Assembly (NCBI RefSeq): GCF_000718785.1
Contig: NZ_JOCA01000029.1
Span: 36,614 to 100,613, forward strand
DNA length: 64,000 bases
Source of the DNA: Streptomyces sp. NRRL WC-3626
Lineage (GTDB): Bacteria; Actinomycetota; Actinomycetes; Streptomycetales; Streptomycetaceae
Reading direction: 5' to 3'
Shown one piece after another: positions 4,715 to 63,302 of the stretch. The position numbers and the translations under genes were made by a program. Position 1 is the stretch's first letter. Each line of letters opens with the position of its first letter. The notes under the pieces were generated by a model. The model saw nothing but the letters and a program-made list of their open reading frames with translations. It was not told the origin of the DNA and did not search any database.

Positions 4715-6547
4715 ATGCAGGACCGGAGTCTGTCCAGGCGTACCGTCCTCACCTCCGCCACCGTGGTCGCCGCGAGTGCGACCGGCGTCGTGGGCGTGGC
4801 GGCGACCCCCGCGGTCGCGCACCGGCGCGACAGCCGCCTCAAGAAGATCATCTCCAGGATGAGCATCGAGGCGAAGATCGGCCAGCTGTTCGTGCCCTAC
4901 TTCCACGGAACGTCGGCGACTTCCCCCAGCCGGTCCGACCAGGACCGCAACCTCGCGGCCCTCGGCGTCCGCACCGTGGCCGAGCTCATCGCCAAGTATC
5001 ACATCGGCGGTGTCATCTACTTCCACGGCTGGACGAACAACATCCAGGACCCCCGCCAGATCGCGGAGTTGAGCAACGGCGTGCAGCGGGCCTCGCTCGC
5101 CCTGCCCACGCCCATCCCGGCCCTGATCTCCATCGACCAGGAGCACGGGGTCAACGTCCGCATCGGCAGCGGCGCCACCCAGCTCCCCGGCGCGATGGCG
5201 CTCGGTGCGGGCGGCTCGCTCTCCGACGCGCGCACCGCCGGATGGATCTCGGGCACCGAACTCGCCGCCCTCGGCATCCATCAGAACTTCGCCCCGGTCG
5301 CCGACGTCAACGTCAACCCGGCCAACCCCATCATCAACATCCGCTCCTTCGGCGCCGACGCCCGCGACGTCGGCCGGATGGTGGCTGCCCAGGTGACGGG
5401 ATATCAGCAGGCCGGCGTCATAGCGTGCGCCAAGCACTTCCCGGGGCACGGGGACACCGGCGAGGACAGCCACACCGGTCTGCCCGTGATCACCCACACC
5501 CGCGAGGAGTGGGACCGTATCGACGCCCCGCCCTTCAGGGCCGCGATCGCCGCCGGTGTCGACTCGATCATGACCGCGCACCTCCAGGTCCCCGCGCTCG
5601 ACCCCAGCAACGACCCGGCCACCCTGTCGCCCGCGATCCTCCAGGGCGTACTGCGCGGCGAACTCGGTTTCGACGGTGTGATCGTCACCGACGCCCTCAA
5701 CATGCAGGGCGTGCGCACCAAGTACGGCGACGACCGCGTCCCCGTCCTCGCCCTGAAGGCCGGCGCCGACCAACTCCTCTTCCCGCCGGACATCGCCGTC
5801 GCCTACAACGGCGTCCTGGCCGCTGTCCGCAGCGGGGAGATCACCGAAGCCAGGCTCGACGAGTCGGTCCTGCGCATCCTGCGGATCAAGGAGAAGGCCG
5901 GCCTGCTCAGCGGCAGCCCCTATGTCCCGCGGAAGGAGGTCGACCGGATCGTCGGCGCCCGCCGGCACCGGCACGCCGCCGCCCGCATCGCCGAGCGCAC
6001 CACCACCCTGCTCGTCAACGAGGACAGGACGCTCCCGCTGCGCCGCAGCCAGAGGAAGCTGCTCGTGGTCGGAGCCAGCCCCGCCTTCCCGACCGACGAC
6101 ACCCGCACGACCGTGCCCGAACTGGCCGCGGCCTTCGACGACCTGGGCTACCGCACCACCCACCTCGCCACCGGCCGGACCCCCGACACGGCGAAGATCG
6201 ACGAGGCGGTCGCCGCCGCACAGGGCCGCGACGCCGTGATCGTCACCACCGACAACATCAACGCGACCAGCCCCCAACGCACCCTCATCTCCCGCCTGCT
6301 CGCGACGGGCGTCCCCGTCATCCACCTCGCGGTGCGCAACCCCTACGACATCGCCCACCTCGCCGACGTCCGGGCCTCCTTGGCCTCCTACTGCTGGACC
6401 GAGGTCGAACTGCGCGCCGCCGCACGGGTGATCGCCGGCCGGGTCGAACCGCGTGGCAAGCTCCCCGTGCCCATCCAGCGGGCCGACGACCCGACCCGGT
6501 ACCTCTTCCGCTCCGGACACGGCCTCTCGTACGACGGCGTCGACTGA
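4715..6547 (+). CDS. Secreted GH3 beta-N-acetylhexosaminidase (Tat substrate)
   Basis: A 610-residue glycoside hydrolase family 3 enzyme. The N-terminus carries a Tat-type signal with SRRTVLTSA at 7-15 and a hydrophobic stretch ending near TPAVAH. The NagZ-type catalytic loop KHFPGHGDT (240-248) with DSH (251-253) marks an N-acetylglucosaminidase, where Asp-His acts as general acid, and D326 in VTDALNM is the expected nucleophile. A C-terminal GH3 sandwich domain follows. ATG chosen because GGAAGGAG lies 9 bases upstream. Exported enzymes of this type release GlcNAc from chitin or peptidoglycan fragments, in line with the DasR-like boxes upstream and the strong terminator downstream. Confidence 0.93.
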   Translation: MQDRSLSRRTVLTSATVVAASATGVVGVAATPAVAHRRDSRLKKIISRMSIEAKIGQLFVPYFHGTSATSPSRSDQDRNLAALGVRTVAELIAKYHIGGVIYFHGWTNNIQDPRQIAELSNGVQRASLALPTPIPALISIDQEHGVNVRIGSGATQLPGAMALGAGGSLSDARTAGWISGTELAALGIHQNFAPVADVNVNPANPIINIRSFGADARDVGRMVAAQVTGYQQAGVIACAKHFPGHGDTGEDSHTGLPVITHTREEWDRIDAPPFRAAIAAGVDSIMTAHLQVPALDPSNDPATLSPAILQGVLRGELGFDGVIVTDALNMQGVRTKYGDDRVPVLALKAGADQLLFPPDIAVAYNGVLAAVRSGEITEARLDESVLRILRIKEKAGLLSGSPYVPRKEVDRIVGARRHRHAAARIAERTTTLLVNEDRTLPLRRSQRKLLVVGASPAFPTDDTRTTVPELAAAFDDLGYRTTHLATGRTPDTAKIDEAVAAAQGRDAVIVTTDNINATSPQRTLISRLLATGVPVIHLAVRNPYDIAHLADVRASLASYCWTEVELRAAARVIAGRVEPRGKLPVPIQRADDPTRYLFRSGHGLSYDGVD

Positions 6548-58354: not shown

Positions 58355-58720
58355 ATGGACCCGCTGCACCACCGCTCGCTCGAACCCTCCGCCGCAGATG
58401 TGCTGCGTGCCCGGTACGCGGGCCGTCTGCCCGGCCGCCTGGACGAGCTGACCGGACCGGTGCACGGGCGGGTCGAGCTCCCGCTGCACATCGCCTGGTC
58501 CGGCCTGCGCGCGTACGACCTCGACCGGCCGCGTCAGCGGATGAGCCTCTACCGGACCGTCCTGGCCGAGGGACGGCGCCAGGACCTCCTCGCCTTCCTG
58601 AACCGGGACCTGCTCGCCTCCCAGTGGCCGGCGCTGCGCACCCTGGTCGGCAGGCACATCCGCGATGTGTGGGAGGACGCCTTCCCCGAGCTCGCCCGTG
58701 AGGCGTCCACCGCCGCGTGA
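58355..58720 (+). CDS. Hypothetical partner of the AbiEii-type nucleotidyltransferase
   Basis: A 121-residue protein: VLRARYAGRLPGRLDELTGP, HGRVELPLHIAWSGLRAYDL, RQRMSLYRTVLAEGRRQDLL, REVWE-type ending DVWEDAFPELAREA. It is found in Streptomyces immediately before AbiEii-like nucleotidyltransferase genes, in the position of the antitoxin, but shares no recognisable HTH with AbiEi. GGAGG lies about 12 bases before the ATG. Confidence 0.65.
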   Translation: MDPLHHRSLEPSAADVLRARYAGRLPGRLDELTGPVHGRVELPLHIAWSGLRAYDLDRPRQRMSLYRTVLAEGRRQDLLAFLNRDLLASQWPALRTLVGRHIRDVWEDAFPELAREASTAA

Positions 58721-59387
58721 ACCTCAGCGGCCTACCCGCCGTCTCCTGTCCGACGTCCTCGCCGTCGGCACGCCCTACCCGCTGGTCATCACCGGCGGAT
58801 ACGCCGTCCAGGCGCACGGCCTGGTCGACCGGCTCAGCCAGGACCTCGACGTCGCCACGGAGAACCCCGCCCCCATGGCGGACATCGCCGAGCACCTGCG
58901 CCGGGCACTGACCGAACGGGGCTGGCGTGTGACGATGATCGGCGTCGACCCGCTGGCGGCACGCCTCGTGGCGGCCGCCCCGGACACCGGTGAGGACTGT
59001 GAGGTGGACGTCCTCAAGGAGAACCTGTGGGCCGCGCCGCTCACCACCGAGTACGGCCCCGTCCTCGCTCTCGACGACGTGATCGGCACCAAGGTCCGCG
59101 CCCTCGCCGACCGCGGCGCGGTCCGCGACCTGATCGACGTCCACGCCGCCTCCGTCCACCACACGGCCACCGAGCTCGAGCGGCTGGGCGAACGGCACGG
59201 CCGCGACGAGTTCCGCCGCCAGGACCTGCGTGACCGCCTGGCCGGCGCCGAGTGGTACGACGACGAGGAGTTCGCCTCCTACGGCCTCACCGGGGAGCAG
59301 ATCACGGAGCTCAGGGCATGGGCCCAGCAGTGGACGAGAGGGGGGAGTGGTCCGGTCAGGTATTGCCGTCTGGCGGGGACTCGGTGA
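58665..59387 (+). CDS. AbiEii/AbiGii-type nucleotidyltransferase (toxin-like)
   Basis: A nucleotidyltransferase-fold protein: LLSDVLAVGTPYPLVITGGY, AVQAHGLVDRLSQDLDVATE (the GG...DxD-type catalytic region), ECEVDVLKE-like CEVDVLKENLWA with the third acidic residue, and DDVIGTKVRALADRGAVRDL. The frame is open from ATG 58665, inside the previous gene, but the family normally begins MNL near the GTG at 58717, which is one frame off, so a one-base indel near 58735 may have altered the start. The C-terminus overlaps the convergent TetR gene by 32 bases. AbiEii toxins of this fold modify tRNA or nucleotides in type IV toxin-antitoxin systems. Confidence 0.75.
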   Translation: MCGRTPSPSSPVRRPPPREPQRPTRRLLSDVLAVGTPYPLVITGGYAVQAHGLVDRLSQDLDVATENPAPMADIAEHLRRALTERGWRVTMIGVDPLAARLVAAAPDTGEDCEVDVLKENLWAAPLTTEYGPVLALDDVIGTKVRALADRGAVRDLIDVHAASVHHTATELERLGERHGRDEFRRQDLRDRLAGAEWYDDEEFASYGLTGEQITELRAWAQQWTRGGSGPVRYCRLAGTR

Positions 59388-60018
59388 AGGCTCCGCCGGA
59401 TGCCGCAAGGGCGGCGCTCCTGGCTGCGTGGTCGGGCAGACGAGGATCGGGTGGCGTACGGAGAAGTACCAGCTGGTGGTACAGCGGCGCGGTGGCGGCG
59501 ATGAGCAGTTGCCGCGCGTTGGTGTGCACGGGGATGTCCCCGCGCCGGACTGCTCGCTGCACGACGATCTCGCAGCGTGCGTACCGGTCCTCCCAGAAGC
59601 GCTGTAGGGCACGGGCGGCTTCGTCGGAGCGGAAGGAGGCGGCGATCAAGGCTGTGGTGATCGGCGGCTGGGCGGTCAGCGCCGTCTGGATCTGGTGGTT
59701 CAGCGCCGCCAGGTCTCCTGGCAGGGAGCCGGTGTCCTCGGGCTGCCAGTCGTCGTAGCTCGCGGCGTCGAGGACGTCGGCGAGCAGTCCGCCGACGTCC
59801 CGCCAGCGTCGGTACACCGTCGTGCGGTGGACGCCCGCGCGGGCCGCGACGGCGTCCACGGTGAGTGCGTCGTAGCCGGCTTCCACCAGCTCGGTGCGCA
59901 CCGCGTCGAGCACCTGCATGCGGATGCGGCTGGTGCGACCGCCCGGGCGGCGTCGGGCCGCCGTCGGAGGCGAGGAATCTCCGACCGGGAATCCGGTTGC
60001 TCGGCGGGACGGCGTCAT
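59356..60018 (-). CDS. TetR/AcrR family repressor of the resistance operon
   Basis: A 220-residue regulator: basic leader, HTH at about 35-80 (MQVLDAVRTELVEAGYDALT, AGVHRTTVYRRWRDVGGLLA), then a TetR_C ligand domain. It diverges from the ABC-F gene 120 bp away with a palindromic operator between. Most likely it represses the ABC-F/virginiamycin B lyase operon and itself, and is released by a drug. Confidence 0.9.
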   Translation of the reverse strand: MTPSRRATGFPVGDSSPPTAARRRPGGRTSRIRMQVLDAVRTELVEAGYDALTVDAVAARAGVHRTTVYRRWRDVGGLLADVLDAASYDDWQPEDTGSLPGDLAALNHQIQTALTAQPPITTALIAASFRSDEAARALQRFWEDRYARCEIVVQRAVRRGDIPVHTNARQLLIAATAPLYHQLVLLRTPPDPRLPDHAARSAALAASGGAFTESPPDGNT

Positions 60019-60027
60019 GACAGCATC

Positions 60028-60051
60028 TTAATGCAACTGTTGTCGCACTAA
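60028..60051. promoter_or_regulatory. TetR operator at the resistance operon
   Basis: TTAATGCAAC and GTCGCACTAA flank TGTT: a 10-4-10 inverted repeat with two mismatches (inner TGCAAC/GTCGCA). It is 9 bp from the TetR start and covers the expected promoter region of the ABC-F transcript. Confidence 0.7.
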
Positions 60052-60071
60052 TGGAGTCGTCGATGCTCTTT

Positions 60072-60128
60072 CGAAGCGTTCACCTGGCCCAGCGGCCCGT
60101 GGGGGCCGCACCGACCTCGAATGCTTCG
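60072..60128 (+). promoter_or_regulatory. Structured leader, possible attenuator, before the ABC-F gene
   Basis: An outer pair CGAAGCGTTC (60072-60081) with GAATGCTTCG (60119-60128) encloses an inner hairpin GCGGCCC (60092-60098) with GGGCCGC (60103-60109). Such leaders control ABC-F resistance genes by drug-induced read-through. The outer stem ends 10 bases before the ATG and could also hide the ribosome site. Confidence 0.5.
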
Positions 60129-60138
60129 GAGTCTTCGC

Positions 60139-61728
60139 ATGCCTACGCAGATCACCGCTCTCGCCGTCAGCAAGTCGTTGGGCGGCAGGCTCGTCCTTGA
60201 CTCGGTGACGTGCTCGCTCGCCGCGGGCGAGCGCACGGGGATCATCGGCGAGAACGGGTCCGGCAAGACCACCTTGCTGCGCTTGCTCGCCGGCCTGGAA
60301 CGGCCCGACCAGGGAGAGGTCATCATCCACGCCGACGGCGGCGTCGGCTACCTCCCGCAGGACGGGCGGCTGCCGCCTGGTGCGACCGTGCGGGAGGTCA
60401 TCGACCGGGCCCTGGGCGAGCTGCGCGCGATCGAGCAGCGGATGCACCGCCTGGAGGCGGCGATGGCCGACGGCGACGAGTCGGGTATGGACGAGTACGG
60501 CGAGCTGCTGACGGTCTTCGAACTGCGTGGCGGCTACGAGGCCGACGCCCGCGTGGAACGCGCCCTGCACGGCCTCGGCCTGAGCCCGCTGGACCGTGAC
60601 CGTACCGTGGGCAGCCTGTCCGGCGGTGAGCAAGTCCGGCTGCGCCTGGCGGCCGTTCTGGCAGCAAGCCCGGAGGTGCTGCTGCTGGACGAGCCGACCA
60701 ACCATCTCGACGAGGAAGCCCTCGGCTGGCTGGAAGAACACCTGCGCACCCGGCGCGGCACCACCGTGGCGGTCTGTCACGACCGCGTCTTCCTGGAACG
60801 CGTGGCCACCAGTCTGCTGGAAGTGGACGCCGACCAGCGCAGCGTGATCCGGTACGGCAACGGTTACGCCGGCTACCTCGCCGAGAAGGCGGCAGCCCGC
60901 CAGCGGTGGGCACAGGCGCACGCCCAGTGGCAAGCCGACGTGGACCGGCTCCGTGAGACCGCCGCGACCACCGCCCGCCGGGTGGCCCCGGGCCGAGCGA
61001 TCAAGGACGGCAACAAGATGGCCTACGACCGGGCGGCAGGCCGCGTCCAGCAGTCGGTGGCCAGCCGGGTACGCCAGGCAGAGGAACGCCTGCGCCGCCT
61101 CCTGACGAACCCGGTCCCGTCCCCACCGCAGCCGTTGCGCTTCGCCCCCGTACTGCGGGCAGGCCATGCACGGGGCGTCCTACTCGATGCCGCTGACGTC
61201 AGCGTCTCAGCCCGGCTCGGCCTCACATCTCTTACGGTCACGGCCGGGGAACGCCTGCTGATCACCGGGCCGAACGGAGCGGGTAAGAGCACCTTGCTGC
61301 GTGTCCTGGCTGGCGACCTGGCCCCCGACAGCGGGACCGTCACCCGCCGGGGCAGGGTCGGCTACCTCCCGCAAGAACCGCAACTCGGCCGACCGGACGA
61401 CACGTTGCTGCCCGCCTTCGCCCGCGGACGAGCCGGTCAAGCCGCCGAGCACGTCGAGCAGCTGCTGGGGCTCGGCCTGTTCAACCGCGACCAGCTCACC
61501 GTTCCAGTGGGCACCTTGTCCACCGGGCAGCGGCAGCGTCTCGCCCTGGCACGGCTGGTCAGCGAACCGTCAGATGTCCTGCTGCTCGACGAGCCCACCA
61601 ACCATCTGTCCCCCGCCCTCGTCGAGGACCTGGAAGCCGCCCTGGCCGACTACGACGGCACCCTCGTGATCGTCAGCCACGACCGCCGGCTGATCCGGCG
61701 CTGGCACGGTGCGCACCTCGCCCTGTAG
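60139..61728 (+). CDS. ABC-F family ATPase, ribosomal protection type
   Basis: A 529-residue cytoplasmic protein with two ABC domains and no membrane part. First domain: Walker A GENGSGKTT (about 39-47), signature LSGGE, Walker B EVLLLDEPTNHLD. A long charged interdomain linker follows (about 250-345, AAATTARRVAPGRAIK...). Second domain: Walker A GPNGAGKST, signature LSTGQ, Walker B DVLLLDEPTNHLS. Antibiotic-resistance ABC-F proteins displace drugs from the ribosome. The partner virginiamycin B lyase downstream makes streptogramins (perhaps also lincosamides or pleuromutilins) the likely drugs. ATG at 60139 is preferred over 60121. Confidence 0.92.
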   Translation: MPTQITALAVSKSLGGRLVLDSVTCSLAAGERTGIIGENGSGKTTLLRLLAGLERPDQGEVIIHADGGVGYLPQDGRLPPGATVREVIDRALGELRAIEQRMHRLEAAMADGDESGMDEYGELLTVFELRGGYEADARVERALHGLGLSPLDRDRTVGSLSGGEQVRLRLAAVLAASPEVLLLDEPTNHLDEEALGWLEEHLRTRRGTTVAVCHDRVFLERVATSLLEVDADQRSVIRYGNGYAGYLAEKAAARQRWAQAHAQWQADVDRLRETAATTARRVAPGRAIKDGNKMAYDRAAGRVQQSVASRVRQAEERLRRLLTNPVPSPPQPLRFAPVLRAGHARGVLLDAADVSVSARLGLTSLTVTAGERLLITGPNGAGKSTLLRVLAGDLAPDSGTVTRRGRVGYLPQEPQLGRPDDTLLPAFARGRAGQAAEHVEQLLGLGLFNRDQLTVPVGTLSTGQRQRLALARLVSEPSDVLLLDEPTNHLSPALVEDLEAALADYDGTLVIVSHDRRLIRRWHGAHLAL

Positions 61729-61794
61729 GCGACTCCCACATCAGCCGCCGCCCGCTGACGCCCGTAATCACCCTCTTCGTCACATGGAGCCCCC

Positions 61795-62694
61795 ATGCCC
61801 CGCCGTGCCGTCTCGATCAAGCAGATACCCGTTTCCGGCCCAGCCTCGGGCCCCTACGCCATCACCACCGGACCCGACGACGCGCTGTGGTTCACCCTGG
61901 TCCACGCCGGTGAGATCGCCCGCCTGACGCCCGACGGCCAGCTCCACCGTTACCGGCTTGACTTGGCGACCTGCGGTCCGTCGGTCATCGCACCCGGCCC
62001 CGACGGGGCCCTGTGGTTCACCCGAAGCCGGGACCACCGCATCGGACGGATCACTGTGAGCGGGCAGATGTCCTCGTTTGCGGTCCCGACACCGGGCAGC
62101 GGCCCGTTCGGAATCACACCCGCCGGCGACGGCGCGCTGTGGTTCACGCAGATGCACACCGACCAGATCGGCCGCATCAGCACCGATGGCCGCGTGACGG
62201 AGTTCCCGCTGCCCGTCAGCGGCGCCTTCCCTTCCGCCATCACCACCGGGCCGGACGACGCGCTGTGGTTCACCCTGAACCGGACGAACGCGGTGGGCCG
62301 CATCAGCGTCGACGGAGACGTCACGATCCACCCGCTGCCCACCATGCAGGCAGGCCCGGTCGGCATCACGCGTGGCGTGGACAACGCACTGTGGCTGGTG
62401 GAGATCGGCGCCGGGCAGATCGGCCGGATCAGTACAGACGGCCGCATCCAGGAATACCCCCTCCCGGACCGTGCCTGCCGACCCCACGCGATCATCGCCG
62501 ACCCGGCGAGGGGTGTCTGCTGGTTCACCGAATGGGGCACCGGCCGAATCGGGTCCATCACCCCCGACGGGCACATCGAGGAGTATGACCTGCCGGGGGG
62601 CCGCTCCTGCGAACCGCACGGCCTTACGGTGGGACCGGACGATGCCCTCTACATTGCCTTGGAGATCGGAGAGATCACCCGAATCGAACCGTAG
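61795..62694 (+). CDS. vgb: Virginiamycin B lyase (streptogramin B lyase)
   Basis: A 299-residue seven-bladed beta-propeller with repeated GPDDALWFT and IGRISTDGR units. The residues known to matter in Vgb are present: His at 231 (CRPHAI) and the EPH pair Glu273/His275 (SCEPHGL). The enzyme linearises type B streptogramins by elimination at the ester bond, without water. GGAG lies 5 bases before the ATG. It follows the ABC-F gene by 66 bp and is probably cotranscribed, giving protection to both streptogramin A (ABC-F) and B (lyase). Confidence 0.9.
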   Translation: MPRRAVSIKQIPVSGPASGPYAITTGPDDALWFTLVHAGEIARLTPDGQLHRYRLDLATCGPSVIAPGPDGALWFTRSRDHRIGRITVSGQMSSFAVPTPGSGPFGITPAGDGALWFTQMHTDQIGRISTDGRVTEFPLPVSGAFPSAITTGPDDALWFTLNRTNAVGRISVDGDVTIHPLPTMQAGPVGITRGVDNALWLVEIGAGQIGRISTDGRIQEYPLPDRACRPHAIIADPARGVCWFTEWGTGRIGSITPDGHIEEYDLPGGRSCEPHGLTVGPDDALYIALEIGEITRIEP

Positions 62695-62778
62695 CCGACC
62701 CCTTGTGGGCCCTTCCTCCCCGCGGAGCCATCCGCATCTGAGGACGCGCGGGCCGTTGCCGCGGAGCCGACGGCGGTC

Positions 62779-63302
62779 CTTGACCCCGGTTCCTGGACAC
62801 GGGTTGTGCGGCTTGCGTCAGCGTAGTTGATGTCATTCGGAAGGCGTTCTCGTAGGTGATGGGGCTGCGGTGACCGAGGCGGGAGTGACGGCGGTGGCCG
62901 TTGTAGCGGTGCAGCCATCGGAACGCGTCGAGCCGGGTCTCGCGCTCGTCGTCCCAGTGCCCGCGGCCCTGGAGGGTCTCGCGTTTGAACGTCTCATTGA
63001 AGGACTCGGCGAGTGCGTTGTCCGCGCTGGAGCCGACCGCGCTCATGGACTGGCGGACGCCGGCCTGGTGGCAGGCGGCGGCGAAGGCCCGGCTGGTGTA
63101 CTGGGCGTCGTGATCGGTGTGCAGGACCGTTCCGGCGAGGCTGCCGCGGGTGCGTTCGGCGGCGGCCAGCGCGTCGCTTCGGGCCGCGACTCGTACACCG
63201 CGACCGCGTCCGCCTTGAACCGCGGCGGATAGATCTTCATGACCACGAGATGTCTCGGATCCTCAGGATCCAGTGTCTCGTGTGTCCAAGATCCGGGGTC
63301 AA
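62779..63302 (-). mobile_element. Deleted IS3-family element with intact ends
   Basis: Terminal inverted repeats of 21 bp at 62779-62799 and 63282-63302 (TTGACCCCGG start) match at 19 positions. On the minus strand the element begins with an OrfA start (MKIYPPRFKADAVAVYESRP then EAT), which breaks off and joins the OrfB integrase core (LAGTVLHTDHDAQYTSRAFA, SAVGSSADNALAESFNETFK, RYNGHRRHSRLG). Most of OrfA and the first part of OrfB are missing, so it cannot move by itself but could be mobilised. No clear target duplication is visible. Confidence 0.85.

Follow-up and report, generated by a model that had tools for sequence, protein, structure and literature searches.

Because streptogramins act as a synergistic pair of A and B components, a defence linking protection of the ribosome to the destruction of one of them has general interest. 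In msr-mph operons, protection by an ABC-F ATPase is paired with a drug-inactivating enzyme; the enzyme there is a macrolide phosphotransferase, not a lyase, and we know of no fusion between the two. Here we analyze a 64,000-nucleotide stretch of the genome of Streptomyces sp. NRRL WC-3626 (the window, to which coordinates refer) in which a TetR-family gene faces a gene pair encoding an ABC-F protein and a virginiamycin (streptogramin) B lyase (Vgb). These genes form a real and recurrent module, probably a doubly regulated streptogramin defence, of which natural fusions exist. At the level of titles, the literature searched held no paper on an ABC-F–Vgb operon or fusion.

The closest described systems each share some of these features. 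Staphylococcal VgbA and VgbB and VgbC from Paenibacillus LC231 belong to the same lyase family and have the same catalytic residues, and their elimination mechanism is expected here. Relative to VgbA and VgbB, the window lyase falls below the allele cut-offs, appears to be governed by a TetR protein and has an ABC-F as its partner, to which relatives show it fused. The ABC-F proteins CarA, TlrC, OleB and SrmB (ARE4) are listed as macrolide resistance factors by Murina et al. (PMC6723617). The ARE5 proteins (LmrC, VarM, TiaA and Are5sc), like the window ABC-F, are actinobacterial and come from genes with a leader; the drugs they act on, according to the literature, are group A streptogramins, lincosamides and pleuromutilins. 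Control of lmrC and other ARE5 genes is described in two papers as transcription attenuation with a terminator (PMC8546547, PMC12421871). The A+B logic is also that of Vat-Vgb pairs; there, a TetR of the same group with the same operator stands beside vat (in L048 and in loci acting in trans), whereas the window TetR stands divergent from an ABC-F gene instead.

The tetR gene (59356..60018, minus strand) encodes a TetR_C_11-type protein (PF16859, 81 bits; PF00440, 38 bits; both above cut-off). With an N-terminal and a C-terminal domain of this kind and a palindrome in the divergent promoter, it has the features of a TetR repressor. The longest ABC-F open reading frame (ORF) spans 60121-61728 and contains two ABC_tran stretches; a start at 60139 is likelier, given the Shine-Dalgarno sequence GGAG at 60128-60131 (plus strand), which places the gene at 60139..61728 on the plus strand. 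After a gap of 66 nt from the ABC-F stop, vgb follows at 61795..62694 (plus strand) behind its own GGAG (61786..61789, plus strand). The original prediction had named these genes, with the same positions and the same catalytic residues in the lyase, and had read the pair as one operon under the divergent TetR; the Pfam and NCBIfam matches bear out the former and the arrangement supports the latter. Its parts list was right about the genes and the palindrome between them and overlooked a leader hairpin and an upstream ORF, described below.

The window Vgb matches PF24684 at 461 bits (curated cut-off 50) and, among solved Vgb structures, 2qc5 (E = 8e-86) and 2z2n (E = 1e-80). H231, E273, H275 and E290, which we take to be the catalytic residues, are all present, and they are invariant in the 61 Vgb sequences aligned. 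It is a member of the streptogramin B lyase family, and linearising activity is predicted from this. Of 392 congeneric genomes, 178 carry Vgb-family genes above cut-off; since the lyase gene is this common, the arrangement rather than the lyase is the special feature. The family also forms other fusions: proteins of about 555 amino acids joining an alpha/beta hydrolase (PF07859) to Vgb number 14 among the 120 long proteins listed in the search described below (P0060, P0098, P0109 and 11 others), with Streptomyces and Nonomuraea as named sources, and in several loci (e.g., L052 and L055) a separate alpha/beta hydrolase gene lies directly 5' of vgb.

The imperfect 24-bp palindrome TTAATGCAACTGTTGTCGCACTAA at 60028..60051 is the predicted TetR operator. 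A repeat finder did not list it. A site with a consensus like TTAAyGCrAC-N4-GTyGCrTTAA nevertheless lies 104-173 nt 5' of the ABC-F gene in 26 of 27 loci of the ABC-F clade (L118 lacks it), and in the source genome (7.9 Mb) 60028-60051 is the sole match at up to three mismatches, with none for the backward control. We then scanned 80 named loci, the best 80 of at least 456 confirmed relatives by Vgb similarity and mostly from Streptomyces, so that counts among them are not prevalences. Their 980,784 bases contain 16 sites matching at least 16 of 20 positions, against 0.38 expected and at most 2 in any of 40 first-order Markov simulations. The consensus was built from the same data before the scan; the sites before vgb alone were not among its inputs. 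L042, L045, L049 and L087 fall below the 16/20 cut, and the spacer is shorter in L042 and L045.

All 16 strong sites precede genes of a few types. Five lie before TetR-ABC-F arrangements (L036, L038, L078, L088 and L099) and one before an ABC-F alone (L039, whose genome encodes a 78% identical TetR elsewhere, L223); one precedes a TetR-vat pair (L048), one a TetR-vgb pair (L057), and eight precede vgb alone (L035, L037, L061, L077, L079, L090, L105 and L112). A TetR homologue is encoded elsewhere in all eight genomes of this last set, and in seven it faces a vat gene, with one or two such sites between the two. Three further sites before vgb alone were found (L013, L026 and L032); L013 and L026 come from genomes that also contain a TetR-ABC-F pair of a type about 60% identical (L141 and L134). 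Vat-like genes are present in the stretches examined at 14 of the 80 loci; NF000311 is the best model for the five Vat proteins scanned (228-247 bits, below its cut-off of 300), and the other nine were assigned by BLAST clustering. Streptomyces nigrescens combines TetR-vat, TetR-ABC-F and operator-vgb in one genome. Mutual exclusion of vat and ABC-F, which holds in the stretches of the 80 loci, is thereby broken (L225, L233). Because the operator is shared with vat and vgb, the simplest reading is that this TetR group regulates streptogramin resistance, with vat, some vgb genes and the ABC-F as outputs in cis or in trans; binding to the operator and release by drug would follow from that role. 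Related palindromes occur more widely. The TetR-ABC-F pairs at about 60% identity (L134-L143, L233) have two operator-like palindromes in the gap, and more distant TetR homologues (L236, L237, L240 and L241), perhaps a sister regulator group, have related but different palindromes (TTAACGG / TAATGGGA-like).

Between operator and ABC-F gene lies a leader. An upstream ORF of 45 codons (MLFRSVHLAQ..., 60063..60200, plus strand), a putative leader peptide preceded by GGAG at 60053..60056 (plus strand), overlaps the ABC-F start in another frame; a start codon stands at a similar position in the 25 leaders listed and GGAG in 19 of them; L049 and L087 instead carry a very short ORF (MIR-stop) there. 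(Outside the 25 leaders are L118, L087, L042, L045 and L134-L143.) The RNA can form a nested hairpin on the plus strand. The outer helix pairs 60072..60081, within codons 4-7 of the upstream ORF, with 60119..60128, and the inner helix pairs 60092..60098 with 60103..60109; the outer 3' arm extends to the ABC-F GGAG and overlaps it by one or two bases. Over 20 of the 25 leaders (without L099, L129, L131, L132 and L133), 83.4% of cells pair, and pairing falls to 33-45% in slid-partner controls. Both sides vary in 9 of 17 pairs, a value reached by 11 of 500 shuffles, and none of 500 reaches the covariation score. RNAalifold finds compensatory change in 8 of 12 pairs. Taken alone, the window leader folds unremarkably (z -1.55).

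A covariance model (R1) built from 18 leaders finds 21 of the 27 clade loci, including those 18. In 200 genomes of the family, all 15 matches of at least 35 bits lie next to this ABC-F gene or an incomplete version of it; the model itself had drawn on at least four of the 15 (own, G132 C2, G088 and G402). Nine weaker matches have no such neighbour, and none of L134-L143 is recognised. No Rfam family reaches its cut-off in the leader, and a match within the ABC-F gene (Atu_Ti3, 60835-60924, 27 bits, under a cut-off of 50) is taken for chance. A simple scan found no intrinsic terminator in the leader, in contrast to the control described for ARE5 genes, and an attenuator of the lmrC type was rejected. 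Because a conserved, covarying hairpin overlaps the ABC-F ribosome-binding site, the leader is probably a translational attenuator.

The ABC-F is of the resistance type, as the original prediction held, and not EttA or Uup, a placement which that prediction had named as grounds for its own rejection: it scores 410 bits with the ribosomal-protection-like model NF000355 (cut-off 380), against 288 bits for EttA (cut-off 599) and 260 for Uup (cut-off 900). Its best NCBIfam match is NF000171 (TlrC/CarA/OleB/SrmB, ARE4) at 674 bits, under the cut-off of 800. In a tree it belongs to a clade of 28 rows of its own (support 100/99), not inside ARE4; the macrolide group there includes a Car(A) above cut-off (L159, 1224 bits). 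Further differences from ARE4 are its place beside TetR and vgb and its drug-site loop, the interdomain-linker tip (residues 270-310; 60946..61068, plus strand): the clade mean identity over this loop is 23% to tips of the CarA/TlrC group as against 45% to the L191 type. Membership of ARE5 was also rejected, as identity to L192, the one ARE5-type sequence compared, is about 36%, and the ARE5-type branches outside the assemblage of the 28-row clade, the macrolide group, a 12-row group and L191. We take for ARE5 a protein type present in 60 of 61 genomes, on the basis of that prevalence, and it differs from the window ABC-F.

In 7 of 10 matches, an L191-type gene immediately follows a second ARE5-type paralogue. 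Such tandem genes, with the L191-type within about 110 nt, are seen at G020 C53, G019 C1, G059 C25 and G003 C4 (L244-L247). The leader peptide reported for tiaA precedes L191 and also L192; this peptide is reported to stall ribosomes with lincosamides, streptogramin A and a pleuromutilin and not with erythromycin. From the closer loop, the context of L191 and the operator shared with vat, we lean moderately toward the ABC-F handling streptogramin A rather than macrolides or streptogramin B.

The module recurs. Among 199 congeneric genomes searched, 20 (the source genome included) encode an ABC-F of at least 65% identity; in 18 of the 20 its gene has a TetR homologue as a neighbour, and in 10 it is immediately followed by vgb. 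Ten ABC-Fs fetched at about 60% identity all adjoin a TetR gene, and none has vgb within 1.5 kb. A complete ABC-F of this type adjoins vgb at eight of the 80 named loci (L038, L039, L042, L045, L078, L087, L088 and L099), and an internally deleted one does so at L036; L049 and L057 have TetR and vgb without the ABC-F. Streptosporangium and Plantactinospora extend the range beyond Streptomycetaceae. In a Vgb tree, the linked lyases occupy one large group from Streptomyces plus two further lineages that are each nested within unlinked lyases, which most simply suggests that the pair was assembled at least three times; the alternative is one old linkage followed by many losses. Decayed or internally deleted ABC-F copies were also seen (L036 at 4948-5937, P0070, L209, L211 and L221). 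In L036 and P0070, the stretch between the two repeated Walker B regions is lost and the lyase part is retained.

In two loci, L130 and L132, ABC-F and Vgb are a single ORF of 890 and 887 codons with no intervening stop. To look for long proteins that include Vgb, we scored the 7998 candidates sharing most words; 4122 passed, and four of the 120 listed join ABC and Vgb parts. These are P0002 (851 amino acids, S. zhaozhouensis), P0074 (867, Streptomyces sp. N2-109), P0077 (849, Plantactinospora sp. S1510) and P0070 (549, P. soyae), the last with an internally deleted ABC-F. In the ABC-F tree, P0074 pairs with L038 and P0077 with L087, both of these partners being unfused, and a third lineage is made up of L130/L132; linkers differ among the fusions. 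Three lineages most simply suggest three separate fusion events. We read a structure predicted for a fusion (three sequences, pTM 0.42) no further than its outline, two folded parts and between them a linker (537-554) of low confidence.

Sequence comparison thus gives the gene content, the conservation of the operator and its sharing with vat and vgb, the covariation of the hairpin, the repeated linkage and the fusions. On this basis we propose, with moderate confidence, that the operon is a streptogramin-inducible, leader-controlled, two-layer defence. In the absence of drug, TetR would occupy 60028-60051 and block transcription of the operon, and the leader hairpin would partly mask the ribosome-binding site of the ABC-F gene. 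One or the other streptogramin component would free TetR from the operator; a ribosome hit by the drug and stalling on the upstream ORF would open the hairpin and allow translation of the ABC-F. The ABC-F would then expel the drug from the ribosome and Vgb, made from the same operon, would linearise the B component. The ABC-F would most likely be the group A arm, as vat would be at other loci of the regulon. We infer the TetR ligand, stalling on the upstream ORF, the drug range of the ABC-F and the activity of the enzyme. A bolder version, which we regard as doubtful, is that the ABC-F passes the ejected streptogramin to the adjacent lyase, a coupling fixed three times as one polypeptide and served by a dedicated streptogramin regulon and by a leader RNA that senses ribosomes and represents a new family.

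Several observations weigh against this scheme. Adjacent vgb is missing at 10 of the 20 close ABC-F loci. A site matching at least 15 of 20 positions lies within 300 nt upstream at only 13 of 110 vgb loci, so most vgb genes, that of L048 included, stand outside the regulon; and beside the TetR homologue (L226) of the L037 genome neither vat nor an ABC-F was found. The presence of TetR-vat and TetR-ABC-F together in S. nigrescens means that the ABC-F is no simple replacement for vat. The leader hairpin shows no excess of pair types over shuffled alignments (188 of 500 reach its count), and the leader model misses six of the 27 clade loci (L087, L099, L118, L129, L131 and L133). Variability at the three codon positions of the upstream ORF (1.02, 0.96 and 0.72 bits; 24 of the 25 leaders, L132 being dropped as a near-copy) runs in the reverse of the coding order; a coding signature was accordingly rejected, and translation of the upstream ORF stays a supposition for that reason. 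Lastly, the whole-protein identity of the ABC-F clade is 51% to the macrolide group, 45% to the L191 type and 36% to the ARE5-type L192, and the tree does not settle the order of the 28-row clade, the 31-row ARE4-like group, the 12-row group and L191.

These last points give its substance to the chief competitor, which we judge unlikely and still a serious one: the ABC-F would be an ARE4-type protector against macrolides and streptogramin B, Vgb would destroy the ejected streptogramin B, and group A would go uncovered. The best NCBIfam match and the highest whole-protein identity are both to the CarA/TlrC/OleB/SrmB group, listed under macrolide resistance in PMC6723617; the ABC-F has been fused repeatedly to a B-type lyase, and the same TetR group adjoins vgb alone and ABC-F alone. 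Against it, the loop that would meet the drug is just 23% identical to ARE4 loops when the whole protein is 51% identical, the tree, for all the uncertainty in its order, does not place the ABC-F with ARE4, and the operator also precedes vat, a group A enzyme. The original prediction of combined streptogramin A and B resistance is affected by the same evidence. Its B part agrees with the lyase family, and the shared operator points to streptogramins; its A part has to contend with an ABC-F nearest by whole-protein identity to macrolide proteins. The label is plausible for the operon, and through the shared operator better supported than before, its ABC-F part being the more tentative.

Another proposal is that the substrate of the lyase is some other cyclic depsipeptide, or not an antibiotic at all, and that the likeness to Vgb extends to the fold only. 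The scores with the VgbA and VgbB allele models (274 and 260 bits, below the 600-bit cut-offs) would allow this, as would CylK, a propeller relative with different chemistry; retention of the catalytic residues in 61 of 61 sequences, the repeated vat neighbourhood and the shared operator make it improbable. Least probable of all is a sensory or regulatory module in the manner of LmrC and TiaA, with the ABC-F tuning expression under sub-inhibitory drug: Streptomyces ARE5 proteins play such a role according to PMC8546547 and PMC12421871, but the window has no giant biosynthetic gene, the source genome has a single operator, and the ABC-F is coupled, in some relatives by fusion, to a family of drug-destroying enzymes, which points to detoxification.

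The 3' end of tetR overlaps by 32 bp, tail to tail, an AbiEii-type nucleotidyltransferase gene (58665-59387, plus strand, 49 bits) that is unmatched in the other loci compared. Directly behind vgb lies a C-terminal remnant of an IS3-family transposase (62675-63046, minus strand), followed by a gene for a DUF475/TerC-like membrane protein. A simple gene caller found no gene longer than 694 amino acids in the window, so that no megasynthase or giant biosynthetic enzyme is encoded there. The original prediction had placed the operon outside any visible streptogramin cluster; this stands for the window, to which the check was confined, the rest of the genome not having been searched for such a cluster. 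Since the module recurs in several actinobacterial families, the accompanying view of it as a stand-alone resistance reservoir is reasonable.

If the regulon holds, a single operator motif would aid the search for genes of streptogramin resistance throughout the actinobacteria, and a testable drug sensor would be available in the leader. The natural ABC-F–Vgb fusions offer a direct route to asking whether ejection and destruction of the drug are coupled.

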